Source: a virus
IMG/VR virus record: IMGVR_UViG_3300020054_000866
Location: 45,823 to 109,822 of that record
Reading direction: 5' to 3' (one strand)
DNA: 64,000 nucleotides
Within the stretch, counting starts at the first letter, position 1. Each line of letters begins with the position of its first letter. Shown piece after piece: positions 29,720 through 53,141 of the stretch. The notes beneath the pieces are model-generated. The model searched no databases and was not told the DNA's origin. It saw only the letters and a program-made list of their open reading frames with translations. The position numbers were made by a program, and so were the translations under genes.

Positions 29720-30003
29720 TCTGAGGTCTTACCTTTCACTACACCGTCGGGAATTAGGGCAAATCTGCAATATCCCATGGGTTCGACTTCCGCTGAGATG
29801 ATTTTGCACTCAGTGCCTCCCGCGTAGAGAATACAGTTTTGGCAGGTGACGCCAATTTCAGCATTCTCATTTTCAGCCGCAGTTTCGTATCCAGCCCAGA
29901 CACCGGTATCATCTTCGTTGAACTTGCCGTACTTCTGAGTTATCGCAATTAGCGCGTCAGCAAGCTCTTGCTCTTCTGCAATGATTTTGCCAACGGCAAT
30001 CAC
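29716..30003 (-). CDS. Small Cys-containing head-region protein
   Basis: A 95-residue protein with an N-terminal helix (VGKIIAEEQELADALIA) and a Cys motif CQNCILYAGGTECKI ... GYCRF. The spacing (CxxC, then C, then G-x-C) parallels the motif in the larger protein at 34124, so both may bind a metal or iron-sulfur cluster. The GTG start overlaps the polyprotein stop (GTGA). Confidence 0.6.
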   Translation of the reverse strand: MIAVGKIIAEEQELADALIAITQKYGKFNEDDTGVWAGYETAAENENAEIGVTCQNCILYAGGTECKIISAEVEPMGYCRFALIPDGVVKGKTSE

Positions 30004-34127: not shown

Positions 34128-34873
34128 TTCTCTACACCTTTTTGTTGTAGCTTATCGTCAGTAATCGGCCCGCCGGTCGCCCAGGCAGCACACGTTCTAG
34201 CAGAGGCGCATTTGAAGTCAAAGGCTTCACAATACCCAAGCTCGCCGGCGTCGATAGAGTCCCACGGGTCGGTTGCGCCGTCTGTGCCGCCAAGACCTTC
34301 AGCAATACAGTTCTTAACACTGGTTGTTACGTAGAAAAACACGCAATTGCCGCACAGGCTCTTTTTAGCATCTTCTGGAGAGACACTCCAGCGATCCGCC
34401 ATATCTTTCCAGTACATATCGTTTGGCTGCTCTGGGTTGAGTGGCCCGTATTCAGCAACCTCGATCGCGCGCTGGCGATTCTTGATATTCAAGGCAATAT
34501 CAGACGTTGCCGGAGGGCACTTACCGTCCTCTACAGCCGCTGTGACCGTGGTCGGATCGCCGTCCTTATCGGAAAAATCCTCGACCTTGAGAACTGGAAC
34601 TCGTTCGCCTTTAACCTGTCTGGTGTCAAAGTATTTGATGAAATCGACGTTCACATACTCGGTGTAGTACTTCGGGTCGTCAATTTCATCAAAGAAGTTT
34701 TCATCGATTTGAACCCACGAGCCGTTGTCTCTGATGAACGTTCTGCCTTTTTGCTCGCTAGCAAAAACAAGGTATACTCCGTCATCGACGTCAGAATCGA
34801 CAACAACGTAGAGGTCGTCTCTGGGGCCGATCGATGTTGGCCACACTGGGACGCTAGCGGTCTTACTTGCCAT
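34124..34873 (-). CDS. Cys-rich virion-region protein
   Basis: A 249-residue protein. The N-terminal ~85 residues are beta-rich (LYVVVDSDVDDGVYLVFA ... TFIRDNGSWVQIDE); the segment FIRDNGSWV is echoed in the protease polyprotein (FIREDGEWV), so a small domain is shared. The C-terminal part has LCGNCVFFY ... NCIAEG ... LGYCEAFDFKCASARTCAAW, six Cys in a compact array suited to an iron-sulfur or zinc site. It is followed by GPITD and a charged end. Role unknown; it lies in the head operon. Confidence 0.6.
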   Translation of the reverse strand: MASKTASVPVWPTSIGPRDDLYVVVDSDVDDGVYLVFASEQKGRTFIRDNGSWVQIDENFFDEIDDPKYYTEYVNVDFIKYFDTRQVKGERVPVLKVEDFSDKDGDPTTVTAAVEDGKCPPATSDIALNIKNRQRAIEVAEYGPLNPEQPNDMYWKDMADRWSVSPEDAKKSLCGNCVFFYVTTSVKNCIAEGLGGTDGATDPWDSIDAGELGYCEAFDFKCASARTCAAWATGGPITDDKLQQKGVEK

Positions 34874-34878
34874 AGCAG

Positions 34879-35151
34879 TCAGTCTCTCATCTCATCAGAC
34901 GGGTTTACCGAATCATCGGAAGCGCGTTCAACTGTCATTCTATACTGTACTCCACGACTCGAGAATGATATTTCGCCATTTTCAAAGTCACTAAGAGGTT
35001 CTGACAGCGGTAGAACCTTATATTTGTCAAAGCTACTTAGCTGAATTGCCGGATTTTCATCATTGAAGACAAGTGCAGAATTCCAATATTGGACCCTGTT
35101 CGTGTATTCTCCAGTCAACTCTTTTATCGTGATTCCAGTGTATTCAATCAT
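34879..35151 (-). CDS. Small hypothetical virion-region protein
   Basis: A 90-residue beta-rich protein (ITIKELTGEYTNRVQYWNSA, then SRGVQYRMTVERA). No family recognised. It starts 4 nt after the stop of the giant gene and ends 6 nt before the next, so it is made from the same message. It could be a small chaperone or immunity-type partner of the giant protein, but nothing in the sequence proves this. Confidence 0.5.
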   Translation of the reverse strand: MIEYTGITIKELTGEYTNRVQYWNSALVFNDENPAIQLSSFDKYKVLPLSEPLSDFENGEISFSSRGVQYRMTVERASDDSVNPSDEMRD

Positions 35152-35154
35152 AGT

Positions 35155-38100
35155 TTAATAAATCCGCTCGAACAATACAAAGAAGTCTTCAACAGGCACT
35201 CCGTTTATTTCAGATATACCACGAGCTTCTAGACTCACGAGTATATTTTCACGCACTTGCGTTCCTACGTGCACTTTCTTAATAGCAGAAGGCGATATCG
35301 CGCCTTTAACAAGAATCTCGTACGCGTCGAATGAAGTCATTTCATTGTACGGATCTCTCTCCGACCGAGCGCCAAATCTGTCAGTCTCGTTTGCCCATAT
35401 GTCTAACCGACTGAGAATGACGTCTGGATCAAGTTCAAACGCGTAGTTTGTAGTCGAGTACGTCGATGTCGGGTCCATTTGAATAGATCTCGGGGTAGCT
35501 CTAGAAATGTACGCGTATTCAGCAGAGCCAGTTCCGTAGTCGGCGTACGACGACTGGCCTTCGATGCCTATGCCGGAATCAAATCTCTTTCTAGAACTGA
35601 CAATGCCAGGTACTCCCGCGCCTATATCATCTGGCTCACTAAGCCCGAGCACTCGAAGAACTACCTTTGCGGCGGCCTCGCTCTCAGTTATCCAAGAGTC
35701 ATCAAAAGTCTCTGAATAGGACGCTGGAAGATTGCCAGCGTGCCAGAACGACTCGCCGCCTCCAAGCGCGATTCTTTTCCTTAGAGCGTCGACAAGCTCT
35801 TGAGAGTGTCGAATCTCGACCTTGCCGGTTGCAGGATCTGTTGCTACAGTGTAGTCAAAAAGACTCGGATACAACTGCCGCAGCTCTTGAACTATTCTAT
35901 CTCTATTTGCCCCCGAGGTCGTGAACGCCGGGTTGTTGTAGTTGCCTTCTGAACTAAGAACGCTAATCGCTCTATTTTCTACAAGGAGCTCGATGTCCTG
36001 CTCTGTTGCCGGTCTTGGGTCGCGAACGCCGGCTACTTTCATTGCTAGTTCAACGACTTCACTTGAGGGATTGTCGTCGTCAAAAAGAATACGAACTCTG
36101 TTTACGTCTGCAATAAGATTGTCAGATCCGCCCTGGACAGCTCCACCTTCTTCATTGTACAGCCCCGTGTATGGACTACTGTATGAGCTGCCAGAAGAGG
36201 TTGTTGCAATTCTTATTGAAAAACCATCTCCTTGATACACGAGCTCTTGCATAGATCTATCAAGGTAGAGTCTTCCGTTACCGTCTTCTTTTCTAATGTC
36301 ATTTGACTCGCCTACATACTTTACGCCGTTGTCGTCGACTTGAATAAAAGTGTTGTATAGCGCGTAACCGATCACGGTGTTTCTCATACGATCAGTGCCA
36401 GTTGAAGTGCTAACTGACCACCCGGAGTCATCGTCTCTAGCCCGCTGTTTAGCGACAGCAGTAAGTCTTTCAGCAGCCCAGGCGGTAAGTTTGAATGACA
36501 TTTGTGTCTTAACTTTGTCGCTAAAGTTGCGCTTGACTCGAGATATCTCCACCTCACCGTCTTCTATGTCTGAACCATCAAACAATGTAGAAGTTGCTAT
36601 CGACTTCTTGTCAGCAGAGTTGGCTATACTAATAGCTTCAGTCATAGACGGTACGTCGTCAAACGCCGAGCTCGTTAACGGAAGAACGTCTACGTCTTCT
36701 CTAAGCTCTCTCCCTGGCCCGAGGAATCGTGACGCGGCCACCCGCGCCGCTAGTGCCGGGTCTGACATAAACAGTTTTGAGACCTTTCTAGCCGCTTCTG
36801 GGTTGTCAGCCATTATTCGTTTAATGGATTCGATGCTCTCGCGAAGAGTAGTGGCGACAGCAACCCACGAATCTTTCCCGCCGACTGCGTTCTTTCCAAT
36901 TGATGACTGATTCTTCTTACTAATTGTCCAGTCGTCTTTTACCTCGATGTCTTTAAATCTGCCGTTAATAAGAGCGTTCTTAAACTCTCCTAGTACAGCA
37001 CGAACTTCAGGATCTGTCGCTTCTCCTATTGCAGCATGAAGATATATTGAAGCCCCAACTACGTCGCCTTGACTAATCATCGCGAGGGTCTGAGTTTCAA
37101 TAGCCCCGTTGTACGGCTTAGCGTCTCCATCAGGAGTATCAGGTCTTCTATTATAGTTGATATCGACCGCCGCCACTCGCGCAAAATTAAGAATATCGCG
37201 GATGCGAGCGAGCTCGCCTAAGTACCCTCTCTCGCTCTTGTCAATTTCTGAAGAGTACGCGTGCCTAACAGCAGCCACTACAGCCATAGTGTTGCCCATA
37301 ACTGTCTCAGGAATGCCTTGCTCATCAAAAATCTGTCTATATTCTTTTGCAAGGACCTCAGAAATTTCATCTACCTCAAAAGGATCTTCGTTGCTGTAGT
37401 CCGTGAAATTCTTAGACATCTTTGCAGTCTCGGCGCGCGCGCGGAGTGCTTCTGAGTGTCTTTCCAAAAGCTCTGGCATGAATTCGTCGAGAGACGGGTG
37501 TAGCTCGCCGGTTCCGACCATGCGTAGGAGCTCATCAGCGGTGAAGAATTTAATTTCTGACGTCTCGTTATCGCTGATTTTCGCGCTCTTCGCGTCTTCA
37601 GCAGAAACTGTGAAGCCAACTGTAGAGTACCGCCAGTCCTGCGTGACATCGTTCTCATGTATGAAGTCGGGGACTGTCAACGCGTTGATAGAAATTCCAA
37701 TTTCCTCTGCGGTCTCTTCAATCGCGGTTGTTCTAGGGTCTTCTGCATTTCTTCTGTTTCTATGCGCTCCACCAGGCAGACCCCACTTCCCCCCTCCTCC
37801 TGGGATCCACGTTGCTCTTTTGCCAAGAACGTACTTAACTTCTCCATCATCGTCAACAAACGAGATTAGCGCGCCGCCGGCGCCGTATCTTCCCCAAAAT
37901 CTTTGCTTCTCCGCCGAGAAGAAATAACCTTCGCCAGCGCTATCTGCTCCACCGTCACCCATCGGTATAAACATTGGTAGTAGAACATCGGGATCGTCAA
38001 CGTTGACGTCGTATCTATCTATAAACGACTCCGCCACCCAGACATCGTCGTCTATCTGACTAAATTCTACTCCCTTGTACGTAGCTTTTTGGAGAGGGTA

Positions 38101-41100
38101 GATACTCTTCTGATTTGATATTTCTCCAGAAGAATTAATGTTCTGCTCAACCCACTCGGGATCAGCATCCTCGATGTACTTTCTCCATTTACCACTTTCT
38201 ACTTTGGCTTTGAGATCACCTTCAATGAAGTAAAAGACCTTGTTGGTCTGAGGAGTAGTCAACCTTCCTTCATAGTCTGGCAATATTCCAGCGTTGTCGT
38301 ACGTCTCTTCAAGTTGCGAATTAAGCACTCGACTCCACGCGATGTGATGCGGGCTGCCGACACGAAATGGATTGAGACTCTCTAGCGCTTTGACAACTAT
38401 TTCCCGAGTCGGTCTAGGGTGACGAGCATCTACGAGATTTGCGTCAAGCCACTCGTCTGATGCGATTGAGTAATAGTCGCGGGCAAGTTCTTTGCTCGGG
38501 CTTTCTGAGTACGTATCGTGTTTTTCCGAGACTGCCTTTGCGATATTCTCGATAAAGAGCTGTACTTTTTGCTCGGTGAAATCAGACTGGGACTTTCCCT
38601 GCTCTTCTCTCTGACTATCTATTATTCTCAACGCTGAAATTCGGTACGAAGCATCTTCTACTGACCCTGGCTCAAACCCTGCACCTTCAATAATGGCACG
38701 TTCAGAATCTGAGAACTCGCCGGCATCAGAGTCATCACCATCGACCGGGCTATCTACATCGGAAGTTTCTGTATCTTGAGTGTTTTCTTCGAGAGATTTA
38801 ACTTTTTCTTCTAAAGATTCAGATTTCTGCGACTTCACGAGCTTAACGTAGTACGAGCCGTCTCCGCGATCTTCGACTGAGTCTACTTTGAACGAGCCGT
38901 ACGCGATAACCTCTCCCTCATCCCATGTCGATAGTTCGCTTACATCTACTCCAATTGCATCTTCTCCATCGACTTCTAGAATGATGTCTCCGAATTCTTC
39001 TGATGTTTCTACGTCCTTTGAAAAAGATCGAGGCGGGATAGTAACTGTAGATCCTTCTGTTATGAAGTCCTCAGTGCTCTCATTGTTGACAATCCCTCTG
39101 TACATTTTTCCACTGTAGGGAGAAGACTCTGAAAGTCGCGTAAGTAGACGAAAGAAAGCGCCAGCAACTGATGGCTCTTCTCCGCCTATCTGTTCTTCTC
39201 CTTGTACTAGTTTTAATTGTGATCTAAGAAGATCTCCATACGACACTGGAAGTTTGTTTTCTTGAGCAAACTTAACAACGTCTTTCATCGAGCTAGGCTT
39301 GTCAATCTTGCTAAGCGCTCCCCCTAGATAGCGCTCCGTCGTGCCGTACCCGTCTAAAATTCCGCCGTCAAAGAATGTTAGAAACGCGACTAAGGCTCTT
39401 AGAGCTTCTTTCTTCTTTACGTCGTCAGATTCTGCAAACTCTATGCGTTCCGATACTACGTCCTTAAGACCAATATTGTCGTCGTCTTGTAGAGCATTGG
39501 ATAAGACGTCGACTAGATCGTCTAAGTACTCATTCTCTTCTTTTGAATTATTTTCTAGATACTCTTCTAACAGCGAGATAGTTCTGTCTGCAACATCTCT
39601 AGACTGTAAGAATCCGGCCAACTCAAATTCGGATGTAAGCTCATCGTCATCGCTGTACAGAACATCATCTGGCTCGAAATTCTTAATTTTTTCAGATACT
39701 TCAGATTCAGCATCGACTGTTGGAGAATCTACAAGGTCGCTGATGTCGTAGTCTTCGTCTAGGACTATCACCTCGTGGTATTTGCCATTGCGCGTCACAT
39801 GGACTGCTGCAATTCTCTCAACGGGGACTAACTCCTCGACAACGTTGTCACCAAACTGCTCTACAAACTCTCTTGTAGTCGCCCAGTTTGTTGTCGACTT
39901 CTTTTTCTGAGCACCGACAGCGCGAAACAACGGAACGGTGTCACCATACTGCGAACGAAGAGCTTCTCTAGTCGCCTTAAAGGCGTCGTAAAAATCTTGT
40001 GGCGATGTTTCTGGATCATCGCCGTCCATAATTTTGTCTACGTCTGTATCAGCATTGAAAAATACTCCGGAGGCAGCACTCTTTATTGCCGTGTACACTC
40101 CTTTATTTTTGAACAGATCTTTGTATGCGGCCAAGTTAGTTTCTGGAGAAAGAGTGCTCAGCCTTTCAGCAGCATCAGCGACGTCTTCTACTGATGCTTT
40201 TGCGTCTTTTCTTCTATCGAAACGTAGCTCATTTATTCTTTTTGATAACGCGACGTACTCTTCGGCTTCTTCCCTTGTTAGTCCACCTTTGGCCTCAAAG
40301 ACTTTGATTCTTTCTTTAAGCTGCTTTTCCTCAGCGAGAGCGTCGTTGTTTGGCGCCCCCTCAGGGGCGTCAACTTTTGGGGAATCACCAACAACTGCAA
40401 TAGCGTCGGATCGACGTATTGTTGTTTCAAAGCCACTCGGTGGACTAATCGTAATGAACGTATCGTCTGGCGACGTCTGACCAATTTCTTCTCGAAGAAG
40501 ATCTTTGATCGTCTCATCGTCTGCCGTATACTCCGGATTCTCAGAATCTCGTAAAGCTTCTGTGATGTTTTTTGAAGCTTGCGCCACGTCGGTACCAGGA
40601 GACTCAGGACGATCAGACTCCTCGCCTGTCCAGGCGTCATCTCTTCTATTGTCCTCGACGTTTTCACGAAGAGCCTCTGTAGTTCCGGCTGGCGCTTCGC
40701 CCGAGTCCCCGCTGTCGTCTGGCTTTGGAGACGGCGGCTCGACACCCATCGGACCTTCACCGTCATCGTCGCCCATCTTACGAAGTTCTTCGAGCTGCGA
40801 GTCAAGGTTCTTCGGCTTCTTGCCTTCAGGAACCTTACCGCTGTCAATCCACGGCGAGTTGTCGTCGCCGTCCTTGATTACTGTAAGCGCAGTTGTGCCT
40901 TTACTGTCGATGTACTTCTTAGGACCATAGCTCTTCTTCGCTTTTTCACCAAGCTTGTCTGGGTCGCGATGATCAATGTCCTTAAGAATGTAGACATTGA
41001 CGTATCCGCCACTTTCGTTGTACCGAACAACTGTGCCGGCATAGCCCCACTTATCTCGAACTCGCATCCCAGGCTTGATGAACACGCCGTCCTTACTAAA

Positions 41101-44100
41101 CCCAAGACCGCTACCCTCTGGCGGAAGACCCTTGCCAATCTCAGCAGGTCCATACACCGAGCCGTCAAGAATTCTTCTTGCGTCACGCACTGATCCGTGC
41201 GCAAAGTCGTAGTCGAGCTTTGTCTTGCCAGTCGAGGTAGAGAACTCGTCAAGCCCGTCCTCCTCGTTGCGCAAACGAGATACTGCCTCGCTGAGAGAAA
41301 TCTTCCCGTCGGTGTAGTCTGAAATCGCGTCAATCGCTCTTTGAAGAGCGTCCTTGAACTTCTTACCAGTTGAGCCCTTGCTATAGATATCGTCCTTAAC
41401 CATCTCAAGGTCGTCTGTGGCTTCTGACAAGTCGTCGCCGAATGTCTTCTGGGTCTTAGGATCAAACGCGACTTCTTCAATGATTGCGCCAGATGTGTCA
41501 ACCGGAGCCTCGTCTGGAGAAGGAGGCGGCAGCGGCATGTCACCTTCGAGAGCCTCAGGAGACTCCGGAGTCCCGCCTGGCGCGACTTCGTCACGTGTCT
41601 CAGCAACTTCTTCGCTCGCTGAGAGTCTTGAGTCAACGACCTCGCCAACGCGTTCGTTGTACATCTCGACGATTTCTTCTTGAGTCGGGGCAGTCCCGAT
41701 TGACTGACCGTCAACCCACGCTTCCCAGGTGTCTGAGAACATCTGTCGAATGTAGCTATTTTCGCTTCCGACAGCGTCAAGCTCGCCTTCACCGAGATCT
41801 TCAAGATTGTACTTCGCTACTTCAGCGGCGCGACGCTCTGGGTCGATCTCCACGGGTACTGGCGGAGCTTCTGGAGCTTCTGGAGCTTCTGGGACATCAG
41901 CCTCAGGAGCGCTAGGCAGATTGGGCGACTCGTCTGCTTCAGTTGTATATCCGTAGATGTACTCAAGAGAGCCTGGATCAAGTTGTTTCTGCGCGCGTGT
42001 AACAGCAACGTACGCAAGACGCAGCTCTTCATCCGCTGGCATAATTGTTGCGCCAGTTTCGCCGTCGACTCTTGGTCCTCTGAAGTCATCGCCAATACGA
42101 ACACGATCCCACTCGAGACCTTTAGCTCTGTGCGCCGTGCTAACTACGACGTCAGGTCTGTCCGCTGATCCGTCGCCAGCAAGCTTCGAGCGAAGCTCAT
42201 TCAATGTCCGCGCGCGGTTGTCGTCGCCCTTGATTGAGCGCACCCAGCTCTTGTCAGCGGCGTTCCACTTAAATCCGAGAGCCTTGATCGACTCTTTAGT
42301 GTCAAATGTTTTTCCGGAGAGTTTTACTCTGTCTCCAGAAACCTCGAACATAACGCCATTAGCAACTTCGCCAGACGAACCGCTCGCAACTTCTGATGGC
42401 ATAAGCGGCGGCGCGCTCGGAAGCTCGTCAGATGACACGTCAGCGTTAGTAGTGTACGGGATTAGACGACCTAGCATGTCGTACAGTCCGTCGACGCCTT
42501 CGCTGTCTACAAGATCGACAAGAAATTCCAGCTTCTTATTGTCTTCGTCTTCGAGAGACTTGACAACTTCATCCCACGACGAGAACGGCGCAAGATCTTC
42601 GTGCATCTGCGGTCGATCGTCTAGTCTTGCCCCAGACTTCAACCAATCAGCGTGGCGAACAAATCTCTCTAGGTCTTCTTTAAACGACTTAGTTACACCG
42701 ACTTTTCTTCCAGCCTCGAGCTCTCTGTAGATTTCTCGAACTGCGCCGGCGTTTGAGCGAACAAGAACCGCGTCAGCATCGGGCATGCCCCCTCTCGGGA
42801 GGATCTTGCCGTCTGGGCCGCCGCCTTCGATTCTGTAGTCCGAACCAAGAGCTGCTAAGAACCTGTTACCGATTCCGGCTATCTGCGGGCCGAATCTCCA
42901 AGACTTTGTTAATGGCAGATCATTCGGAGCACTGATTTTTTGTAGCTCGTCTTCAGCACCGCGGAAACCGTAGATCGCTTGATTACCGTCTCCAACGTAC
43001 ACAACCTGCGCGGTCTGATCTGCAATGACCTTTCCGATTACAGGGTTGATGTCCTGTGCTTCGTCAAAGAAGATGACATCGGCTTTGTAGTCAAGTCCGG
43101 AGCCGTCGGCAGATAGATCAGGGCGAGACAACGCCCAGATCTTCGTCGCGTGGTTGTTGTTGAACGGAAGAACGCCACTCGGGCTCTTAAGATCGTCCCA
43201 AATTTCTCCGGCCTTAGCAATCCATTCGTCTGGGACGTTGTCAAACTCGAAGTGCTGAGGGCCAATCTCATCATCGGCGCTAATCGTATAGTTTGTGACC
43301 GCCTTATTGATCGCGCGATACACCTGAGTAGCCGTCATGTCCTTGTCTGGCTCGTCTGGGCTTGGCTGCCCAGTTATTCCGAGGTCATTGGCAAGTTTAC
43401 TTGGCTTGTTGTTGAAGCGGTTTTTCTTACGCTTGTCTGTGAGACTCGAGCCAATTGCTCTCCACGCGATTGAGTCGCCAGTACGTGACTCAACGTTGCC
43501 TGGCATTGTCGCATCAGCCTCGAGCTGAATTGACTTGTTGAACGCGACGTACGCTATTCTCTTCTTAGGCTGCTCTTTCTTCAAGCGCCTTGCAATAAGC
43601 TTAAGAGTGCTCGTCTTACCAGTCCCGGCAAGAGCACGAACAACAACATTTTCACCAGTAAGCACGGCGTCAACAACATCGCGCTGTTGAGCCGTCGGTG
43701 GGAACTTCTCGTCAGCGTAGGGATCCTTGACGTTTACGCCATCTTTCTCAGGACGCTCAACAACTCCGTCATCAAGAGCATCTGCCATTGAGACGTTGCT
43801 GTCTGTTGCGCCGCCAGGTACGCCTTCGGGGTCTACAATCGACTCGTCTGGAGTCGCATTGTTGATCATGTCGTCTGGGTCTGGCACGTCGCACGGGCCT
43901 TCTCCATCACCGACTGCCGCTGTGATGCCGGCGCCGCCGCAGTTCCACGCGGCCGCTACGGCCTTAGCGGCTTCGTAGTCAGCGAGCTCGTCCTTGTACA
44001 CCGACATTGCAGCGTCGTACTCTGCGCGGTCTTGGGCGATCTTTTCAGCCTCACGGCCATCGAACGACTCTGTAGAAACGTCAGCATCAGGCGCCGATGC

Positions 44101-47100
44101 GCGGGTTAGCATCGCGTCAGTAATGTCCCAGGCGGCTTCGGCATCAGCGTCAGCGCGGTGCCAGTTGCCGAGCTCTACACCGAGGTACTCAGCGACAGGG
44201 CCGAGGCTGTTCGACGAACGCCTCTTGCCGTCGCGGCCTACCTGCGAAGGACCGTCTGGAGAGCCAGACGACCACGTTGGCAGAGTCCCTCTTGCCATTG
44301 GCAGAGAATCAATAGTTCCACCAATCTCGAGTTCGAGGCCCTGCTCGCCTAGAGTACGCTGTAGTACTTCAGTATCAAACGGAACGTTCTGTCCGCCAAG
44401 AATCGGACGATCTCCAACAAACTCGATGAATCGCTCGTGCGCCTCGCGCATTGATGGCTGAGTCTCTAGCCACTCGTCGGTGACAAGCTCCCCGTCCTCG
44501 CGCTTTAGATTCTCTTTTGACCAATCCGAGAGTCTAAACTCTGGATTCATGTACATGTTGAATCTATCGACGACCTCGCCGTTGACAATTCGAACAGCAC
44601 CGATCTGCACAGGACGGTTGAGTTCGCCGTCTCCAATGCCAGTTGTCTCATAGTCAAAGTAGACGATCTCAGTTCCGCGAATGATCTCCGCGACTTCTTC
44701 CCAGCTCTCTGCGCCCTCAAGAAGATCTCGCATGTCGCCACTGAACGTCTCTTGACTTCTAGGCGAGTACGGTCTCTTTGGTCGATGAAGCGCGGGCTTA
44801 TCGCCCTTTGGAGGTGTCGTACCGCCGCGGCTAACTTCAATCTCAGTGTCTTCGTTCCACTCCTTGCGCTGAGACTCGTGGCCAGGGTAGTATCCTTGAA
44901 TACTTACCTTGCCTTTTGGAGTTTCGGAATCGCGGAAAACTTTTTCGACGACAAATGAATCAGTCGCGGTAATGTCGCCTGGCACTAGGTCCTGCGCCTG
45001 GTAGCCCATCGCGTCAGTGAGCGGCTCTGGATCTGGGAAAAGATCGGGATCGTCTTGGCCTTCTTGAATCCCGAAGCGATCAAGAATCGACTGGCGACGA
45101 GCCTTCAAGCGCTCCTTAAGAAGAGCGGCATCATCTGGATCCGAGACAATTGAATCTACTGTTTCGTCAATCTGCGACGGAGTGATGTCACGAAGTCTCT
45201 TCGCGGCAGCCTGCAATGTTGCATCATCGATATCGCCAAAGACTGACGCCGCCTGCGGATTTAGATCTGGGTCGCGAAGAGTGTCGAGCTCTGTTACGTT
45301 GTTGCCAAACGCCGAGCCTTTCTCAGCGCCACGAGCACGATACATCAACGAGCCGCCTGGGTCGAGACGCACCGGGTCTCCATTGCCGTCTGTGACGATG
45401 TTGTCATAGACCAGCCCAACGCTGTCCCAGTTTGCTAGCCAGGCGTCAGCAACAAATCCTTGACGGACCTTGTCGAGATACTCAGTGTCTCCACCGTCGA
45501 CCCTAAACTCAAAGTCACCGGTGTCGGCGTCTTCAATTAATGTAGAGACGATTCTTGTGTCGCCATCTTCACGACCGAGGCGAACACGTGCTGCCGGCAC
45601 TCCGAGCATCTCGTAGAATGCGGATGCAAGAACTTCGTTCTCCGCGTGAGACTGCGATCTCGGCGACTTGACGTAGTATCTTCTGCCATCGGGAGTCTCA
45701 TAGAACCCACCCGGGTTCGATCCCGCCTGGCCGCCAGTGCGAGACCATGTTTCAATGTCGTCGGCGTCTGGATCGTACGCTGTAGCAGCAGACGGCGCTT
45801 CAGGCGCCGCCGCATCGGCTCTACGAACTTGAACAATAGTCTCAACACCAAACTCATTACTCTGCTCGCGGACAGACACTACCTGTAGCTCTCCGAAGCC
45901 GATCCATTCCTGCTCGTCTGGGACAAACGACATGTCTGACACGTTAAGGCTGTCAATCTCGCCTGGTGGCACCTCAAGAACAATTCTACGCTCATTCACG
46001 CCGGTGGGGAAGAACAGACGACTCATTAGAGAGCCATCGGCAATCTCCTGCGCAGTGAATGGGCGAGCATCCATAGAAAACGTCGAACCCTCAGTCAGAA
46101 GAGTCTCGATCTCCGGATTATCTTTGTGAATGTTAAGGACTCTATAGAGTGGCCGATTATTCGGTGACGCGGCGGAAGAAACAATTCTGTAGAACGCGGC
46201 AGCGGTAGTGTCCGCCGACAGATCGTCAGAGCCAGACGAAATTGCTTTCTTACCATTGATGTAGTCGGCGTACTGGCCGTACTCTTCGATCATCTCGTAG
46301 TACGCGTCTTCTGCTATTGATGCAATGTCACCGTCTACTCCGTCTCTCTCAAGAATATTGCTGATAGCACCGAGCATTCGCATTCTTGAGTCTTCGGGGG
46401 AGATTACGTCTGGTTCAGCGAGATCTCCGCCGTCTCCACCGTCAATAGACATGACGATACCCCAGAACGCTCTGAACGCTTCGCGATCTGCTGGGTCGTC
46501 GGACTTCGATAGTGGGTAGAATCTTTCAAACGCTTCATCAAACGACAAAACCGGATCGTCGCTGCGGCCGAAGATAATTTGATCCGCGATTTCTTTGATC
46601 TTTGGATTTGTTTCTTCGTGAGAGCGCATAAGCTCAACAGCGCGTTGCGCTCGCTCGTTGTCTAAGCTCTGCCCAGTTCGCTGAGCTTTCTGCGCCGTGA
46701 CTCTGTCGGCCTCGCCTTGCGTCTGAGGTATTTCGGAGCGTGCCGGGCTGTACTCAGGCGAATCAAACATGTCGCCTTTAAACTCTTGTAGTCTTTCGAC
46801 GTTGCTGACACGGTTAGGGTCATCAAACGCCGAGTCGTAGATGCCCGCAAGAATTATGTCGGCATCGACACCTGACATTTGAAGCGCTTCATAGAGCGCC
46901 TCAGCAGGCACAGTTTCATCTCCGTCTGAGAACTCAAGATTGCCGAGACCTTCAGCACGGTCCCCACTCTCGCTAGGCATGACAGCTTCGCGCAGAGCCT
47001 TGGCAAGCTCTTCCTGCGAAAATCTTGTCGAAAGCTCAGAAGGATCGTCTGTGTAGTCTTCGCTTGTCTCATCGGTGCGACCACGGGGCTCGTACATCGA

Positions 47101-50100
47101 GTAGATGTCAACCTTGTGCGCGCCATCTGGGACCTCGAACATCGAGTCAAACTCGCTCTCGAATTCTGGAGAAATCCCAGACGGAGTCTTAGACTCGCTT
47201 GGCATCGGCGAGATTTTGTCAATAGAGAACGTTCTCTCTTCCATCTCGCCATCGACGTCTAAGAACCCGACGACGTTAGTTAGCCCGTTCTTCGGGTTAC
47301 TGTAAATGCGACTTGGAGTAAACGTTCTCTCCTTGCCGCTGTACATGAACCGAACTGTTCCGCCGGCCTCCATCGCGTCTTCTATTGCAGATCTAATGCC
47401 GAAGAAGCTCGTATCTGTAATATCAGCGGGCCCGCCAGTGTATAGCTCTGGGTCTATGTCTGGAGTAACCCCGTCAAAGATGTCTGGGTCGCCGTCACCT
47501 TCGGTTAGTTTCTGGAAAAGCTCGGCGTTCTCCTCGTCATCGTTGCTGAAACGTGCGTTAAGTGCACCGTCAGTCTCAGCGTCGCCAAGGAAGCTGCGAG
47601 CCTCCTCTGGAGTCAGCCTAGGCTTATCAAACGTAACAACAACCTTGCGTTCATCGCCCATTCCAAGAGGAGACCCGTCAAGACTGTCGTACAGACTGTC
47701 ATTCTCTTCGATGTACCCGCCGGCGTCATTAACACGCTTAACGAGATCTTCGGTGAAGTCCTCTTCAACCATTGGGAACGCAATTTGAACGCCATCGCCC
47801 TTAGGCTTAGTGTTCATTGGGCTAAGCGGATCGCTGCCGTCACCTTCGGTCGGAGGCGTGATGTCGTCATCGGTTGGCTTGAAGAAGTCAAGAACCTCTT
47901 GGCCGAAGTTATCTCTGATCTCAGCGTCAAAGTCAGTAACTGACGGATCGCTTGAGTCTGCTCTGAACGCGACCTCGACGTCTTCTTCAGCGTCCTCTGG
48001 CGCGCGAACAATGGCAGTGACAATGTAGTTGCCAGGGCTTGGCTCCTCAAGAAATACCTCAGCGAGCTCGCCTTCGTACTCTGCGCTTATTGAGCCCTCT
48101 CGGTACTCACTCGAGGATACGGGAACCTGGCCTTCTGGGGTCTTGCCTTCTACAATGTCCTCAAGTTCGCCGTAGAAATCTTCTGTATCGTCGTCACCGT
48201 AGTAGAACGAGATTTTGTCGAAGTCGGCAACGTCTTCCCAGGACACTCTTTGAGTATCTGGAGAAGAAAGTCTTACTCCGTTCTCGTCGTGAGTGTACGT
48301 TACGTCAAAGCCGTCTTCGTCAGACTCAGTTACTACGCCGTAACCGTTCGGGCCCTGGACAATTGTCGCAATTCCTCTCTCGAGTTCGTCTTTTTCGGAA
48401 GGTTGGCGATCTACTTTCTTGAGAGTGGTGCCAGGTCTGCCTGTTTCGTCGCCTTTTGACTTGTCGTAGTCGATGACGCGGTCCATGACGTCTGTGATTT
48501 GAGAGTCCCTGCTTGGAGTTTCAGCAGCAGGTTTGCCGGAGTCAAGCTCGGGGAAGAACATGCCAGCCTGACCAGGCCTGTAGACCGTGTAGCCCTCATC
48601 GCCAGCAGCGTAGTCCCCATAGTACTTGGGCTTTCTTGGCCCACTCTTAGCAACTTCGTAGCCGCGGGACTGTAACTCCGCGATAATGGAACTAGCAGAG
48701 TACTCAGACTTATCCGCAAACAGTGAATAGCCTCTGTCAAACGGTCTCTCCGCTCTCTTGCCATGTTTTGCGAGCTCCGCCATGAGCTCTTCGTCTGTCA
48801 TCTGCTCGAGCTCTTTAGCCTTCTTGTCGTCGCGCTTTGGCCGAGGCTTCACTGGCTTCACTGGGGGGAAGAGATCACGTCTCTCCTCCTCAAGGAACTT
48901 TTCTATAGCTTTTCGAGCATCTCTCTCTGCGCGCTCTGCTTCTTTCTTTTCGCGCTCTTCTTCTTTTCTTCTCTCTTCGACAATTCTTGAGGTGTCCATC
49001 GGGCTAATCGGGTAGCCATCTGGAAACACGTCTTTTGGAAATACACCTGGCTCATCAGCACGACTGTTTATCCACTTACGCCATTCCTCGTAAGTCATGT
49101 CTCGTGGGCCTGCGCCAATTTGATTCTTCCACGCCTCGTACGCCTCGCGGGAGTCGTCAAACATTTTTTCTCCGCTAGGGAAACGCGCCTCAGCAGCGTC
49201 TACCTCGCGGGCACCCTCTACAATCCTCTCGAGTTCACCATAGAAATCTTCTTGCTCCTCGGGTCTGAATGAAACTTCTTGGAAGTCCTCAGTGACGTCT
49301 CCCCAGGCAACTGTCCGAGTTTCTGGAGAATCAAGTTTGTTCCCGTCCCTGTCGTGCGTGTACAGGATGTCGATGCCGTCGTCATCTATATCGGTGATTA
49401 GGCCAGAGCCGTTTGGCTCACTGACAATTGTCGCAATATCATTCTCGATTTCCTCTCGTTCGAGGACATCCTCTCTTATGTAGTCAGATTTGAGAGCTCG
49501 ATCTATAACGTCTGCAATTTGAGAGTCTCGGGTCGGGAATTCAGTGGCACCCTCTGCGTCAGCAGCCTCCTGTAGAACCTTCTCATATGCCGGCGAGTCA
49601 TCTTTCGCGGCGCGCTGCACGTCAGCCCACGACTTGCCGTCAGCGACCTTTTCGCCAATGGAGTTGTCTGTGAGATCAGCACGATGGAGACTGTAGTCTC
49701 CGGTCTCAAGATTCTTTCGAACGAAGTAGCCGTCATCAGATACGAACTGCTCAAAGCCGGCGTCACCGCTATCTGCTCTCGACCACCCCGTGGGAGCGTC
49801 GAGACGACTGATTTCTCCTTCTCGAACGAGCGACTCGCGGCCGCCGGTAACTCTGTCGAGCTCTACCTCCGGGATCTCCTTAAGCGCTTCTCTCGAGATA
49901 ATCGCCTTCGAAGACACGCCCTTTGACGAAGGGAGCGCGTAGATGCCGCCTGGAAGACTTGGGCTGTCAGTGATCTCGATCTCGATGTCATCGTCGCCAG
50001 ACGCTCCAACAACACGTCCGGAGACTGAGAAAATGCTGCCATCAAGATCTAAGTTGAAGCTAAAGCCGCCGCCCATGAAGGCGAATCGACCGTAACGATC

Positions 50101-50721
50101 GCGTCGCTGCATTCTCGCGCGAAGCGAGCGAGCAGCTCTTGAGTTGCCACCGATGCCGAAGCCACCAACAGCAACAATGCTAAGAGGCTCCGGAGCAATA
50201 GCGTCGTCGAGGCGCAGGTAAGTTGGCACAGCACCTGACGGCGCGACAGACAGACGGGTGAACGCGTGAACTCTCTCTGACGAGCCGGGGAACGCCGAGT
50301 ACGCGGCTGAAACAAGCGCGCGATAGCTGTCATCAATGAACGGGTCAGCCGCAAGCCAACGAGCATTCGCGTGACGAAGCGACGCGCTGTTCATCTTATG
50401 ACTCTTTGTCGACGCCGGATGCGACACTGGAAGCAAATCGCAGTGACGCATCGACTGAGAAGTTTGTGTATTAGAAGTGCAGAGTGAGATAAACTGTGAC
50501 ACCTCGCGAAGAGCGTTGAACACTCTTACTCGAGGGTCGTGCGTCACTGTTCGCGCCAGTGAACGGTTCGCTACAGCAATCGCAGCAGCAACAGCAACTC
50601 TGCGCTCCGGAAGAACGCGGCTGTTCGCATCAGCAACAAGCGCAAGAACGTCGGTACGGATCTTTATTCCGTACTGATGAATGAACTTACTCTTTGCAAC
50701 ACTTCTGTTTCTTGTTTTCAC
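35155..50721 (-). CDS. Giant 5188-residue multidomain polyvalent protein (ART, kinase, DnaQ, UvrD helicase, NUDIX)
   Basis: A single uninterrupted frame of 15.6 kb. Approximate domains: ~90 DLLPVSHP; ~207 RDRYGRFAFMGG; two ~85-residue repeats at ~418-500 and ~775-858; WYL-like ~1100-1175; ADP-ribosyltransferase 1 ~1500-1625 (LYRVLN, STFSMD, EQEW); HipA/PI-kinase-like ~1655-1830 (GSNPGGFY, YYVK, NWDSVG, LDPGGSL); DnaQ ~2015-2200 (FDYETTG, NVPFDTEV, HRADADAE); UvrD-type helicase ~2345-2925 (AGTGKTSTL, DEAQDINP, GDGNQAIYGFRGA, HRAKGLEW); ART 2 ~3520-3665; ART 3 ~3800-3965 (KMYRGI, EGEVIAYG); NUDIX ~4270-4400 (GLPGGAHRNRR ... EETAEEIG). The GTG overlaps the upstream stop. A late-operon position after portal suggests packaging and injection. 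Confidence 0.85.
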   Translation of the reverse strand: MKTRNRSVAKSKFIHQYGIKIRTDVLALVADANSRVLPERRVAVAAAIAVANRSLARTVTHDPRVRVFNALREVSQFISLCTSNTQTSQSMRHCDLLPVSHPASTKSHKMNSASLRHANARWLAADPFIDDSYRALVSAAYSAFPGSSERVHAFTRLSVAPSGAVPTYLRLDDAIAPEPLSIVAVGGFGIGGNSRAARSLRARMQRRDRYGRFAFMGGGFSFNLDLDGSIFSVSGRVVGASGDDDIEIEITDSPSLPGGIYALPSSKGVSSKAIISREALKEIPEVELDRVTGGRESLVREGEISRLDAPTGWSRADSGDAGFEQFVSDDGYFVRKNLETGDYSLHRADLTDNSIGEKVADGKSWADVQRAAKDDSPAYEKVLQEAADAEGATEFPTRDSQIADVIDRALKSDYIREDVLEREEIENDIATIVSEPNGSGLITDIDDDGIDILYTHDRDGNKLDSPETRTVAWGDVTEDFQEVSFRPEEQEDFYGELERIVEGAREVDAAEARFPSGEKMFDDSREAYEAWKNQIGAGPRDMTYEEWRKWINSRADEPGVFPKDVFPDGYPISPMDTSRIVEERRKEEEREKKEAERAERDARKAIEKFLEEERRDLFPPVKPVKPRPKRDDKKAKELEQMTDEELMAELAKHGKRAERPFDRGYSLFADKSEYSASSIIAELQSRGYEVAKSGPRKPKYYGDYAAGDEGYTVYRPGQAGMFFPELDSGKPAAETPSRDSQITDVMDRVIDYDKSKGDETGRPGTTLKKVDRQPSEKDELERGIATIVQGPNGYGVVTESDEDGFDVTYTHDENGVRLSSPDTQRVSWEDVADFDKISFYYGDDDTEDFYGELEDIVEGKTPEGQVPVSSSEYREGSISAEYEGELAEVFLEEPSPGNYIVTAIVRAPEDAEEDVEVAFRADSSDPSVTDFDAEIRDNFGQEVLDFFKPTDDDITPPTEGDGSDPLSPMNTKPKGDGVQIAFPMVEEDFTEDLVKRVNDAGGYIEENDSLYDSLDGSPLGMGDERKVVVTFDKPRLTPEEARSFLGDAETDGALNARFSNDDEENAELFQKLTEGDGDPDIFDGVTPDIDPELYTGGPADITDTSFFGIRSAIEDAMEAGGTVRFMYSGKERTFTPSRIYSNPKNGLTNVVGFLDVDGEMEERTFSIDKISPMPSESKTPSGISPEFESEFDSMFEVPDGAHKVDIYSMYEPRGRTDETSEDYTDDPSELSTRFSQEELAKALREAVMPSESGDRAEGLGNLEFSDGDETVPAEALYEALQMSGVDADIILAGIYDSAFDDPNRVSNVERLQEFKGDMFDSPEYSPARSEIPQTQGEADRVTAQKAQRTGQSLDNERAQRAVELMRSHEETNPKIKEIADQIIFGRSDDPVLSFDEAFERFYPLSKSDDPADREAFRAFWGIVMSIDGGDGGDLAEPDVISPEDSRMRMLGAISNILERDGVDGDIASIAEDAYYEMIEEYGQYADYINGKKAISSGSDDLSADTTAAAFYRIVSSAASPNNRPLYRVLNIHKDNPEIETLLTEGSTFSMDARPFTAQEIADGSLMSRLFFPTGVNERRIVLEVPPGEIDSLNVSDMSFVPDEQEWIGFGELQVVSVREQSNEFGVETIVQVRRADAAAPEAPSAATAYDPDADDIETWSRTGGQAGSNPGGFYETPDGRRYYVKSPRSQSHAENEVLASAFYEMLGVPAARVRLGREDGDTRIVSTLIEDADTGDFEFRVDGGDTEYLDKVRQGFVADAWLANWDSVGLVYDNIVTDGNGDPVRLDPGGSLMYRARGAEKGSAFGNNVTELDTLRDPDLNPQAASVFGDIDDATLQAAAKRLRDITPSQIDETVDSIVSDPDDAALLKERLKARRQSILDRFGIQEGQDDPDLFPDPEPLTDAMGYQAQDLVPGDITATDSFVVEKVFRDSETPKGKVSIQGYYPGHESQRKEWNEDTEIEVSRGGTTPPKGDKPALHRPKRPYSPRSQETFSGDMRDLLEGAESWEEVAEIIRGTEIVYFDYETTGIGDGELNRPVQIGAVRIVNGEVVDRFNMYMNPEFRLSDWSKENLKREDGELVTDEWLETQPSMREAHERFIEFVGDRPILGGQNVPFDTEVLQRTLGEQGLELEIGGTIDSLPMARGTLPTWSSGSPDGPSQVGRDGKRRSSNSLGPVAEYLGVELGNWHRADADAEAAWDITDAMLTRASAPDADVSTESFDGREAEKIAQDRAEYDAAMSVYKDELADYEAAKAVAAAWNCGGAGITAAVGDGEGPCDVPDPDDMINNATPDESIVDPEGVPGGATDSNVSMADALDDGVVERPEKDGVNVKDPYADEKFPPTAQQRDVVDAVLTGENVVVRALAGTGKTSTLKLIARRLKKEQPKKRIAYVAFNKSIQLEADATMPGNVESRTGDSIAWRAIGSSLTDKRKKNRFNNKPSKLANDLGITGQPSPDEPDKDMTATQVYRAINKAVTNYTISADDEIGPQHFEFDNVPDEWIAKAGEIWDDLKSPSGVLPFNNNHATKIWALSRPDLSADGSGLDYKADVIFFDEAQDINPVIGKVIADQTAQVVYVGDGNQAIYGFRGAEDELQKISAPNDLPLTKSWRFGPQIAGIGNRFLAALGSDYRIEGGGPDGKILPRGGMPDADAVLVRSNAGAVREIYRELEAGRKVGVTKSFKEDLERFVRHADWLKSGARLDDRPQMHEDLAPFSSWDEVVKSLEDEDNKKLEFLVDLVDSEGVDGLYDMLGRLIPYTTNADVSSDELPSAPPLMPSEVASGSSGEVANGVMFEVSGDRVKLSGKTFDTKESIKALGFKWNAADKSWVRSIKGDDNRARTLNELRSKLAGDGSADRPDVVVSTAHRAKGLEWDRVRIGDDFRGPRVDGETGATIMPADEELRLAYVAVTRAQKQLDPGSLEYIYGYTTEADESPNLPSAPEADVPEAPEAPEAPPVPVEIDPERRAAEVAKYNLEDLGEGELDAVGSENSYIRQMFSDTWEAWVDGQSIGTAPTQEEIVEMYNERVGEVVDSRLSASEEVAETRDEVAPGGTPESPEALEGDMPLPPPSPDEAPVDTSGAIIEEVAFDPKTQKTFGDDLSEATDDLEMVKDDIYSKGSTGKKFKDALQRAIDAISDYTDGKISLSEAVSRLRNEEDGLDEFSTSTGKTKLDYDFAHGSVRDARRILDGSVYGPAEIGKGLPPEGSGLGFSKDGVFIKPGMRVRDKWGYAGTVVRYNESGGYVNVYILKDIDHRDPDKLGEKAKKSYGPKKYIDSKGTTALTVIKDGDDNSPWIDSGKVPEGKKPKNLDSQLEELRKMGDDDGEGPMGVEPPSPKPDDSGDSGEAPAGTTEALRENVEDNRRDDAWTGEESDRPESPGTDVAQASKNITEALRDSENPEYTADDETIKDLLREEIGQTSPDDTFITISPPSGFETTIRRSDAIAVVGDSPKVDAPEGAPNNDALAEEKQLKERIKVFEAKGGLTREEAEEYVALSKRINELRFDRRKDAKASVEDVADAAERLSTLSPETNLAAYKDLFKNKGVYTAIKSAASGVFFNADTDVDKIMDGDDPETSPQDFYDAFKATREALRSQYGDTVPLFRAVGAQKKKSTTNWATTREFVEQFGDNVVEELVPVERIAAVHVTRNGKYHEVIVLDEDYDISDLVDSPTVDAESEVSEKIKNFEPDDVLYSDDDELTSEFELAGFLQSRDVADRTISLLEEYLENNSKEENEYLDDLVDVLSNALQDDDNIGLKDVVSERIEFAESDDVKKKEALRALVAFLTFFDGGILDGYGTTERYLGGALSKIDKPSSMKDVVKFAQENKLPVSYGDLLRSQLKLVQGEEQIGGEEPSVAGAFFRLLTRLSESSPYSGKMYRGIVNNESTEDFITEGSTVTIPPRSFSKDVETSEEFGDIILEVDGEDAIGVDVSELSTWDEGEVIAYGSFKVDSVEDRGDGSYYVKLVKSQKSESLEEKVKSLEENTQDTETSDVDSPVDGDDSDAGEFSDSERAIIEGAGFEPGSVEDASYRISALRIIDSQREEQGKSQSDFTEQKVQLFIENIAKAVSEKHDTYSESPSKELARDYYSIASDEWLDANLVDARHPRPTREIVVKALESLNPFRVGSPHHIAWSRVLNSQLEETYDNAGILPDYEGRLTTPQTNKVFYFIEGDLKAKVESGKWRKYIEDADPEWVEQNINSSGEISNQKSIYPLQKATYKGVEFSQIDDDVWVAESFIDRYDVNVDDPDVLLPMFIPMGDGGADSAGEGYFFSAEKQRFWGRYGAGGALISFVDDDGEVKYVLGKRATWIPGGGGKWGLPGGAHRNRRNAEDPRTTAIEETAEEIGISINALTVPDFIHENDVTQDWRYSTVGFTVSAEDAKSAKISDNETSEIKFFTADELLRMVGTGELHPSLDEFMPELLERHSEALRARAETAKMSKNFTDYSNEDPFEVDEISEVLAKEYRQIFDEQGIPETVMGNTMAVVAAVRHAYSSEIDKSERGYLGELARIRDILNFARVAAVDINYNRRPDTPDGDAKPYNGAIETQTLAMISQGDVVGASIYLHAAIGEATDPEVRAVLGEFKNALINGRFKDIEVKDDWTISKKNQSSIGKNAVGGKDSWVAVATTLRESIESIKRIMADNPEAARKVSKLFMSDPALAARVAASRFLGPGRELREDVDVLPLTSSAFDDVPSMTEAISIANSADKKSIATSTLFDGSDIEDGEVEISRVKRNFSDKVKTQMSFKLTAWAAERLTAVAKQRARDDDSGWSVSTSTGTDRMRNTVIGYALYNTFIQVDDNGVKYVGESNDIRKEDGNGRLYLDRSMQELVYQGDGFSIRIATTSSGSSYSSPYTGLYNEEGGAVQGGSDNLIADVNRVRILFDDDNPSSEVVELAMKVAGVRDPRPATEQDIELLVENRAISVLSSEGNYNNPAFTTSGANRDRIVQELRQLYPSLFDYTVATDPATGKVEIRHSQELVDALRKRIALGGGESFWHAGNLPASYSETFDDSWITESEAAAKVVLRVLGLSEPDDIGAGVPGIVSSRKRFDSGIGIEGQSSYADYGTGSAEYAYISRATPRSIQMDPTSTYSTTNYAFELDPDVILSRLDIWANETDRFGARSERDPYNEMTSFDAYEILVKGAISPSAIKKVHVGTQVRENILVSLEARGISEINGVPVEDFFVLFERIY

Positions 50722-51386
50722 GACGTTGCCTCGCCTGTGTAACGTGGTAATAGATCTCGATCTCTGCTGTATCCTAGAAGTGTCACTAAATCCTTAGCAC
50801 GGTCAAACGGGTTTTCGTCATTAGCGAGCGCGCGCTTCCACGCGGCTCGAACGGATGGAATGAACTCGTAGCCGAAGCCCGAGTACTCGGCCATCGCAAC
50901 AATTGCTTCCTCTGGAGATGCATACTCGCTCTCATCGAGAATTTCAACAAACAACTCTTCATACACCGGGCGTGTACCTGCGGTAATCGCCGAAGCGTCT
51001 TTCTTTGACGACCTCGGATGCGTCGCCGGAAGAAGATCGTTATCTTGGGTGTAGTTTGGGTTTGACGGCTTACCGGAGCGAAGAAGCTTTAGATACGCGT
51101 TCACTCTTGCCATCGCCCATTGATCTCGTGTCTTGCCTGGGCGATGAGATGTTGAAAACGCGCCTGCACCGCGGCGGTACACCGCCTTGAGCTGCCCCAT
51201 CGTCGCCTTACGGCCAGCAGACGCCTTCTTATTGTGCTCCTGCATCTTGTTGCGAAGAGCTTTTTCAGTCTTGTCTGAAAACTTTATTTTCTTAGCGTTC
51301 TTTGCCTTTGCTGAACCAGGCTTATTTTTCTTTGAGCCCTTGATTCTCTCACTCGGCTTCGCCGGAACACTGCTACTCTTTGCCAT
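50718..51386 (-). CDS. Conserved head-region protein with basic N terminus
   Basis: A product of 222 residues. The first ~45 are Lys/Ser/Ala-rich and basic. Then comes a conserved phage module: SAGRKATMGQLKAVYRRGAG, RPGKTRDQWAMARVNAYLK and QDNDLLPATHP, found in many actinophage head proteins. It ends in another DLLP motif (DRDLLPRYTG). The DLLP motif also opens the giant protein, so both may bind the same head component. Start: ATG 51386 (a GTG 3 nt earlier is possible) behind ggagg, overlapping the portal stop. Confidence 0.65.
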   Translation of the reverse strand: MAKSSSVPAKPSERIKGSKKNKPGSAKAKNAKKIKFSDKTEKALRNKMQEHNKKASAGRKATMGQLKAVYRRGAGAFSTSHRPGKTRDQWAMARVNAYLKLLRSGKPSNPNYTQDNDLLPATHPRSSKKDASAITAGTRPVYEELFVEILDESEYASPEEAIVAMAEYSGFGYEFIPSVRAAWKRALANDENPFDRAKDLVTLLGYSRDRDLLPRYTGEATS

Positions 51387-53080: not shown

Positions 53081-53141
53081 AACCTTCTCCTCGTCTCGTG
53101 ACGGAGTCAACTAAGATTCATATGTCCGGCGAACCGGGAAA

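Follow-up and report, generated by a model that had tools for sequence, protein, structure and literature searches.

Introduction

Polyvalent proteins carry disparate enzymes in one chain, are encoded near virion genes and are predicted to be injected into the host, and one of 12,242 residues is encoded on a plasmid (PMC5512222). In phage P1, the 250-kDa virion protein DarB has an N-terminal packaging signal, its gene is listed beside that of the portal and it is believed to enter the cell (PMC9024508), while DarA/Hdf is located inside the head (PMC12810830). T4 Alt is a precedent for a phage-packaged ADP-ribosyltransferase (ART; PMC5512222), there are further precedents for ARTs and NUDIX proteins packaged in phage virions (PMC5512222, PMC9503650), and the large virion cargo proteins of crAss001 are thought to cross the tail partly unfolded (PMC10172136). 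In Microbacterium phage Burro the product of a gene of >4,400 residues, a length called in 2020 the largest of any actinobacteriophage, is described as virion associated, and its authors ascribed a virion band of ~250 kDa to this product or a processed part of it (PMC7302621). Here we describe a 5,188-residue protein (the giant) encoded in the window, the 64,000-nucleotide stretch analysed, which is positions 45823–109822 of the 109,822-base virus record IMGVR_UViG_3300020054_000866. The giant is probably a polyvalent effector, linked to the portal gene of an actinophage-like virus with a long tail, packaged in the head via a short module and ejected with the DNA. No description of its gene family in such terms was found in the open-access PMC literature.

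Results

A single reading frame encodes the giant

The initial annotation of this DNA had read one uninterrupted 15.6-kb frame, naming no strand, and this is borne out: the frame runs exactly from 35155 to 50721 on the minus strand. The product has a computed mass of ~571 kDa, an isoelectric point of 4.4 and four cysteines, and the start codon overlaps the 3' end of the upstream gene (50718–51389) by 4 nt. The IMG/VR contig 3300020189_000013 is identical to the gene over all 15,567 bases. Two further contigs match it without internal mismatch over 14,164 and 11,649 bases, as do three short ones over 1,081–3,395 bases, the partial matches stopping at the end of the available contig sequence. 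The frameshift joining unrelated genes of which the annotation had warned is thus not seen, and neither a frameshift nor a chimera is at all likely. G+C at third codon positions drops from ~0.55 to ~0.45 past residue ~3300, a hint, taken with the patchy homology, that the gene is of mosaic origin. The size, which had been singled out as remarkable, is surpassed within the giant's own family, which reaches 6,094, 6,546 and 7,671 residues, and by the plasmid-encoded protein cited above. An Rfam scan of positions 34000–52000 gave no match.

Enzyme domains of the giant

Seven enzyme-type domains (three ARTs, a kinase, a DnaQ exonuclease, a UvrD helicase and a NUDIX hydrolase) and a WYL-like module had been proposed by eye. 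Profile and fold searches (Table 1) confirmed DnaQ, UvrD and NUDIX at Pfam cut-offs, with PHROG support for the first two, and recovered the first ART (ART1) and the kinase by fold, neither having a Pfam match. The WYL-like module is weak: seven of eight family copies match PF13280 weakly, and the window copy stays below the cut-off (E = 0.054). Catalytic motifs are present in the kinase, DnaQ, the helicase, NUDIX and the ART termed ART3 below. The DnaQ domain has the ExoI D-x-E, ExoII N..D and ExoIII H....D of the DEDDh type, as read by eye in the translation; stricter scripted patterns missed ExoI and ExoII and caught ExoIII as well. In the superfamily 1 (SF1) helicase, which Pfam delimits to residues 2344–2914 (7.4e-13) and phrog_1967 to residues 2335–2915, the Walker A and DExQD motifs were read by eye and motifs III, V and VI were found by scan. 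Residues 1–1650 and 3001–3900 have no PHROG match and no Pfam match above the cut-off, the best Pfam lines there being LEM (0.053) and DUF2017 (0.33). The giant also carries an internal duplication of ~110 residues.

ART1 and the kinase occupy the first and second halves of model 1 (residues 1377–1890; mean predicted local distance difference test score, pLDDT, 74). The kinase half superimposes on CtkA with Z 15.9 and a root mean square deviation (rmsd) of 3.0 over 212 aligned residues, and on HipT/HipA with Z of 11–12. It has the Gly-rich loop, Lys, Glu, D..N.D and D(P)GG of CtkA/HipA-type kinases, with K1685, E1696, D1759, N1764, D1766 and D1787 invariant in seven rows. Foldseek matches the ART1 half to Vis, VIP2 and CDTa (prob 1.0, E 3e-4 to 2e-3), structure comparison gives HopU1 and 6dre, both with Z 9.7, and R1527 and E1603-x-E1605 are invariant in a seven-row alignment. 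Lethal-factor chains, the top Foldseek rows for model 1, were set aside, being mostly whole-model alignments at ~21–23 Å rmsd. A PDB profile search with the ART1 and kinase alignment gave nothing meaningful.

ART3 was found through ART1. Residues 3831–4030 match the ART1 profile in hhalign (97.6%, E 4e-12) with RSFS and EGE kept, and the two regions find each other in a self-BLAST of the giant at ~1e-6 to 3e-6; ART3 is, judged from these alignments, a distant copy of ART1. Measured against the R-S-E type of ART (the fold and R / S-x-S(T) / ExE), ART1 has the fold, with Pro in place of the motif Ser, and ART3 has RSFS. A further candidate at residues ~3480–3660 recurs in two other contigs, L148 and L149, with conserved R, T.NWAT and E (R..T.NW..E); it matched no ART profile and is unconfirmed as an ART. 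The domain conserved in these two viral contigs reads LFR.VG.Q..T.NWATTRE..QFG...NGKYHEVIV. Aligning ART1, ART3, the C-terminus and residues 3480–3700 by hhalign to the Pfam-type ARTs of phages Sixama and Forza and of a related IMG/VR giant (G007) gave no support, and among the direct hhalign ART comparisons only that of ART3 to ART1 worked.

The C-terminus may supply the third ART. In model 2 (residues 4665–5188) the last ~200 residues resemble DarT, whose chains take the top 7 of 50 rows (Z 9.0–11.6), followed by KptA (6.7). R, Y and E are invariant, in that order, in a seven-row alignment, and may correspond to R51, Y71 and E160 in the active site of Thermus DarT (PMC9967889). A PDB profile search with the C-terminal alignment gave nothing at E<=10, and a BFVD search no clear viral match. 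This low-confidence model suggests a DarT-like, DNA-ADP-ribosylating fold, a domain not described as such in the initial annotation. The three ARTs proposed there can thus be filled by ART1, ART3 and the DarT-like C-terminus.

A module shared with the head-protease-side gene

A module of ~65 residues near the N-terminus of the giant has a second copy in the 1,375-residue head gene downstream (Table 1). Second copies are also found in gene 48513 of the Actinomycetia phage DSL-LC01 and in the matching genes of phages Mimi, Atuin, Pumpernickel and Cece, and in DSL-LC01 the gene that immediately follows the portal gene, 48507, holds a third. A mixed 19-row profile of the module matched 14 of 17 whole records. 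In the window virus and five named phages, where matches were placed by coordinates, they fall in the post-portal giant, the protease-side gene or 48507, with a weak third match in Mimi (0.004) inside the same protease-side gene. The relationship holds in a non-circular test on 2,321 open reading frames (ORFs) of the window virus and DSL-LC01. With a profile of giants only (14 rows), 48507 scored 2e-20 and the protease-side genes scored 1.9e-7 and 5e-6, against 3.3 for the next real match and 0.3 for the best reversed decoy. With a profile of protease-side copies only (4 rows), the scores were 8e-8 for 48507, 8.7e-5 for the window giant and 0.006 for that of DSL-LC01; the best decoy scored 0.14, and an additional match (0.03) lay in an ORF over a tail assembly chaperone gene.

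The module was sought by pattern in viral contigs, giving 254 matches and 190 relatives, from which the best 80 loci were counted (frames taken from the preceding stop; several loci near-identical assemblies; one frame itself protease-side). In 77 of these 80 IMG/VR loci the frame with the module has a portal homolog 0.5–7.3 kb upstream, and in 75 the module sits at frame position 180–230; in the Microbacterium and Arthrobacter giants it lies at residue ~15–30. Contigs of genomes from 84,980 species gave 210 pattern matches and no module relative, in a search that required exact short patterns and could have let distant copies escape. All of 33 records picked for carrying the module (four shared with the set of 17) were matched, 12 once, 20 twice and one (G034) three times, the second copies lying in frames of 1,080–1,894 residues. 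Throughout the records searched, the module was seen only in large genes between the portal and major capsid genes, placement in IMG/VR records being judged from frame size and order alone. In G008, an exception where the contig cuts the start of the giant, the first match lies in a 1,935-residue frame between the giant and the protease-side gene. That frame (L056 6463–12267, minus strand) is a second large late gene directly after the giant, and G034 (L141/L142) has two module-bearing large frames in tandem, of 4,896 and 3,540 residues.

Relatives shuffle enzymes, and two of them show purifying selection

The portal protein has matches in 839 phage records. The relatives examined were DSL-LC01 and eleven cultured phages of Microbacterium, Arthrobacter and Gordonia; large genes follow the portal gene in all eleven, sometimes past a small gene, and likewise in many IMG/VR contigs. 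The post-portal genes encode 466, 347 and 3,289 residues in DSL-LC01, 2,235 in Pumpernickel, 1,654 in Cece, 2,709 in Mimi, 3,113 in Atuin, 611+1,764 in Zooman, 611+1,756 in Big4, 611+1,913 in A3Wally, 1,479 in GodonK, 734+1,017 in Forza, 774+1,285 in Sixama and 883 in GMA2.

The relatives shuffle enzymes, and the N-terminus, module and C-terminus are often kept. By BLAST maps the window giant shares its helicase with Mimi, Atuin and contigs L028, L033, L037 and L049, its DnaQ with L028, L033, L034 and L049, its NUDIX with L034 and L049, its kinase with DSL-LC01, eight of the IMG/VR frames and the Gordonia phages, and its C-terminus with DSL-LC01, L028, L030, L032, L034, L036 and L049. G007, the record of L049, encodes 6,546 residues with ART1, kinase, DnaQ and helicase in the order of the window giant, plus a second kinase, two Pfam ARTs, two NUDIX stretches, KTSC and a sub-threshold ParB match. 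A permuted domain order in L049 was rejected; an incomplete stretch of the frame had suggested it, and the complete one has the second kinase instead. The order in L034 does differ from that of the window giant. The frame of 7,671 residues (G022) is closed at both ends, and that of 6,094 is in G025. The kinase also occurs in at least seven phages of Gram-negative hosts among the matches listed, four of them annotated as ADP-ribosyltransferase. In Dolphis the gene (L143 5078–8746, 1,222 residues) is so annotated, with no portal gene in the 14-kb stretch viewed, and in Mecenats66 (L144 7015–10731, 1,238 residues) it is annotated hypothetical and lies upstream of terminase and portal.

The ratio of nonsynonymous to synonymous substitution rates (dN/dS) was computed in 400-codon windows between the G007 giant and a 6,328-residue part of the G022 giant, the proteins being 97% identical. 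It is ~0.16 overall and up to 0.37 outside the named enzyme windows, as against 0.02 in the DnaQ window, 0.07–0.14 in the helicase, 0.08 in ART1 and the first kinase and 0.03 where an ART and the second kinase share a 400-codon window; no nonsynonymous change occurs in the last such window, a short one. These two related giants are therefore under purifying selection. The values bear on the family and not on the window copy, because the window giant is nearly or fully saturated at synonymous sites against its relatives.

Proposed role and alternatives

We infer the packaging, cutting, ejection and targets of the giant as follows. The module may recruit the giant into the procapsid or mark it for the head protease, and packaging in the virion gains indirect support because the module is common to the giant and the head-protease-side gene. 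Once packaged, and perhaps cut, the giant would be threaded through the tail along with the DNA. In the cell the ARTs and kinase would alter host proteins, the DarT-like domain would modify nucleic acid, NUDIX would clear signals of the NAD/ADP-ribose type, and DnaQ and UvrD would act on the incoming genome ends ahead of the synthesis of the phage's own replication enzymes.

Several observations weigh against this role. A chain of ~571 kDa would have to pass through a long tail, and no zincin-type self-processing peptidase was found in the giant by Pfam. The module is not universal: the Gordonia phages GodonK, Forza and GMA2 were not matched by the mixed 19-row profile, and GodonK and Forza still keep a kinase-bearing post-portal gene. 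A single copy is present in 12 of the 33 module-picked records; some of these contigs are short, but G027 and G028 (126 and 81 kb) have room for a second. ART1 reads RPFT here and RS(F/W)T in the other six aligned relatives, and because the motif Ser is replaced by Pro it may be weak or inactive in this virus. Finally, model 2 has a low mean pLDDT of 61, and Foldseek ranks DarT first to third at E values of just 0.055–0.13.

It is possible, though we doubt it, that the giant is a polyprotein cut by the head protease inside the procapsid into separate injected enzymes, the module being a processing signal and not an address tag. The other main carrier of the module is indeed the head-protease-side gene, DSL-LC01 encodes parts of the region as genes of their own (48507, 48509), the post-portal content of Zooman, Forza and Sixama is split over two large genes, and the Burro virion band, from a protein likened to the giant's family by description, could be a processed part (PMC7302621). 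No cleavage motif was identified, however, and in Mimi and Atuin the module gene is separate from the gene annotated as protease. A structural head component, of a minor head or scaffold-like kind, with enzyme domains that are mostly relics or serve assembly, would suit the place in the head block and the module held in common with a head gene; it is unlikely in view of the catalytic motifs in five domains, the low dN/dS of the enzyme regions in two relatives, and an enzyme content and order that vary, unlike those of a structural part. The evidence for packaging being indirect, the giant might instead be a late intracellular multi-enzyme that stays out of the virion and lies near the portal gene merely through operon structure. 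This too is improbable given the shared module, the position kept in nearly all loci counted and the argument made in the literature for packaged ARTs in such contexts (PMC9503650). An assembly or frameshift artefact fusing unrelated genes, for which nothing was found, was rejected as next to impossible given the identical gene in a second contig, the large identical parts in others and divergent relatives with frames of 4,616–7,671 residues.

Returning to the packaged effector, we tentatively propose, short of even confidence, a wider role in which the module is a head address label, borne by cargo and by a protease-side protein, that loads interchangeable arrays of enzymes, up to 7,671 residues long, in many actinophage-like viruses, and in which the DarT-like domain that recurs at the C-terminus is a nucleic-acid ADP-ribosyltransferase delivered by the virion. 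A phage would then be turning to its own use a fold familiar from a bacterial anti-phage toxin, and a defined packaging tag for long-tailed phage heads and a DarT-like domain in a virion protein would each offer a new handle on the disarming of the host in the first minutes of infection. Cultured relatives in the laboratory hosts Microbacterium foliorum and Arthrobacter globiformis share the layout, so that packaging, processing and injection are directly testable.

The late block and surrounding genome

The late genes are transcribed in the order terminase large subunit, endolysin-like gene, small genes, portal, DUF5824 gene, giant, 249-residue gene, 1,375-residue head gene, 187-residue gene, major capsid, tail genes and tape measure (Table 1). 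The giant had been placed directly after the portal and a head gene; the portal does lie upstream, but the gene between them encodes a DUF5824 protein and is not an evident head gene. The 1,375-residue head gene is a fusion whose counterparts in DSL-LC01 are two separate genes. The tail is probably long and non-contractile, because no tail sheath match was found among the 20 late genes scanned. In a plus-strand block, individual matches to annotated genes of DSL-LC01 identify thymidylate enzymes, PolA, RuvC, a helicase, a PD-(D/E)XK nuclease and RecA; since the virus has its own PolA, helicase, RecA and RuvC, the DnaQ and UvrD domains of the giant supplement its replication enzymes. Near the window end a minus-strand gene (62675–63262) has sigma-70 region 4 (6.8e-11) and possibly encodes a phage sigma factor. 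An HslV-type protease gene (61711–62322, minus strand; phrog_1040 1.7e-20) is present, as in DSL-LC01, where a WhiB gene adjoins it.

Table 1. Features of the giant and its late block, in window positions (residue numbers refer to the giant unless stated).
Feature	Residues	Position	Strand	Basis
Giant gene	5,188 aa	35155..50721	minus	single ORF, GTG start, one stop
N-terminal conserved region	1-384	49570..50721	minus	40% to DSL-LC01 giant, 28-48% to parts of other giants
Head module	191-261	49939..50151	minus	Q.RD..G[RK][FW]..MGGG....G..VG
Internal repeat copy 1	392-503	49213..49548	minus	46% to residues 732-859
Internal repeat copy 2	732-859	48145..48528	minus	46% to copy 1
WYL-like module (weak)	1109-1175	47197..47397	minus	PF13280, sub-cut-off
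Unnamed domain	~1176-1298	46828..47196	minus	recurs in many giants, local matches 28-54% in several
ART1, R-S-E type	~1501-1636	45814..46221	minus	alignment; fold model
CtkA/HipA-type kinase	1655-1886	45064..45759	minus	fold model; alignment
DnaQ (DEDDh) 3'-5' exonuclease	2020-2199	44125..44664	minus	PF00929 (RNase_T) 1.1e-14, phrog_192 2.6e-25
UvrD-type SF1 helicase	2338-2962	41836..43710	minus	PF00580, PF13361, phrog_1967 7.5e-86
Unconfirmed ART-like segment	~3480-3660	39742..40284	minus	kept in L148, L149
ART3	~3850-3965	38827..39174	minus	R3875, RSFS, E3935-G-E3937
NUDIX hydrolase	4288-4406	37504..37860	minus	PF00293 9.5e-9
Putative DarT-like ART fold	~4981-5188	35158..35781	minus	R5046, Y5069, E5135; H4994 less strictly kept
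Terminase large subunit		56178..57599	minus	phrog_979 6.6e-24; 84% to DSL-LC01 TerL
Portal protein		51386..53110	minus	phrog_776 1e-104
DUF5824 protein, between portal and giant		50718..51389	minus	PF19141 4.6e-10
Conserved gene after giant		34124..34873	minus	45% to DSL-LC01 48512
1,375-aa head gene		30000..34127	minus	N half: second module copy; C half: portal/head-maturation-protease PHROG matches
Second head-module copy	~350-410 of head gene	32898..33080	minus	profile match
Major capsid protein		27000..29033	minus	phrog_777 1.5e-83

Comparison with known systems

The closest counterpart is WJZ48510 of DSL-LC01, a 3,289-residue 'hypothetical protein' in the same place of the portal-to-capsid block, which aligns to residues 1–384, 1109–1885, 3060–3304 and 4682–5182 of the window giant at 28–45%. 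Neither alignment nor Pfam revealed DnaQ, UvrD or NUDIX in this protein, and neighbouring pieces are separate genes. Arthrobacter phage proteins Mimi gp77 and Atuin gp71 (2,709 and 3,113 residues, annotated 'DNA helicase') are likewise post-portal giants with the head module; their UvrD helicase is 41–42% identical, and they have no BLAST match to the kinase, DnaQ, NUDIX or C-terminus of the window giant.

Among described virion proteins, P1 DarB is a methylase-helicase (PMC5512222), unlike the enzyme set here, and its packaging signal has <30 residues (PMC9024508). The crAss001 cargo proteins, likened to the giant by size and cargo role alone, are RNA-polymerase-associated (PMC10172136). The proteins of Microbacterium cluster EK and Burro, set beside the giant by description, come from very large actinophage genes with few recognisable domains, and the EK phages are listed as podoviruses, unlike the probably long-tailed window virus; at 5,188 residues the giant exceeds the length reported for Burro.

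The giant resembles the polyvalent proteins of the 2017 catalogue (PMC5512222) in its single chain and its genomic place, and departs from them in its R-S-E ARTs, kinase type, DnaQ and DarT-like domain and in a module that a head gene also carries. Within the parts of that survey drawn on, Alt/VIP2-type (R-S-E) ARTs are stated to be absent from genuine polyvalent proteins, and the kinase type differs from the CtkA/HipA type. HYD2-type ART, zincin peptidase, MuF and ArdC-N had no Pfam match in the giant at E<=1, and some catalogue domains perhaps have no Pfam model. The polyvalent-protein concept invoked by the initial annotation nevertheless fits, with at least two unrelated activities in one polypeptide, catalytic motifs largely intact, and a phage gene in the late head block beside virion genes and portal–terminase packaging. 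By its sequence, the giant appears to be a polyvalent protein as Iyer et al. use the term, injection being the predicted part.

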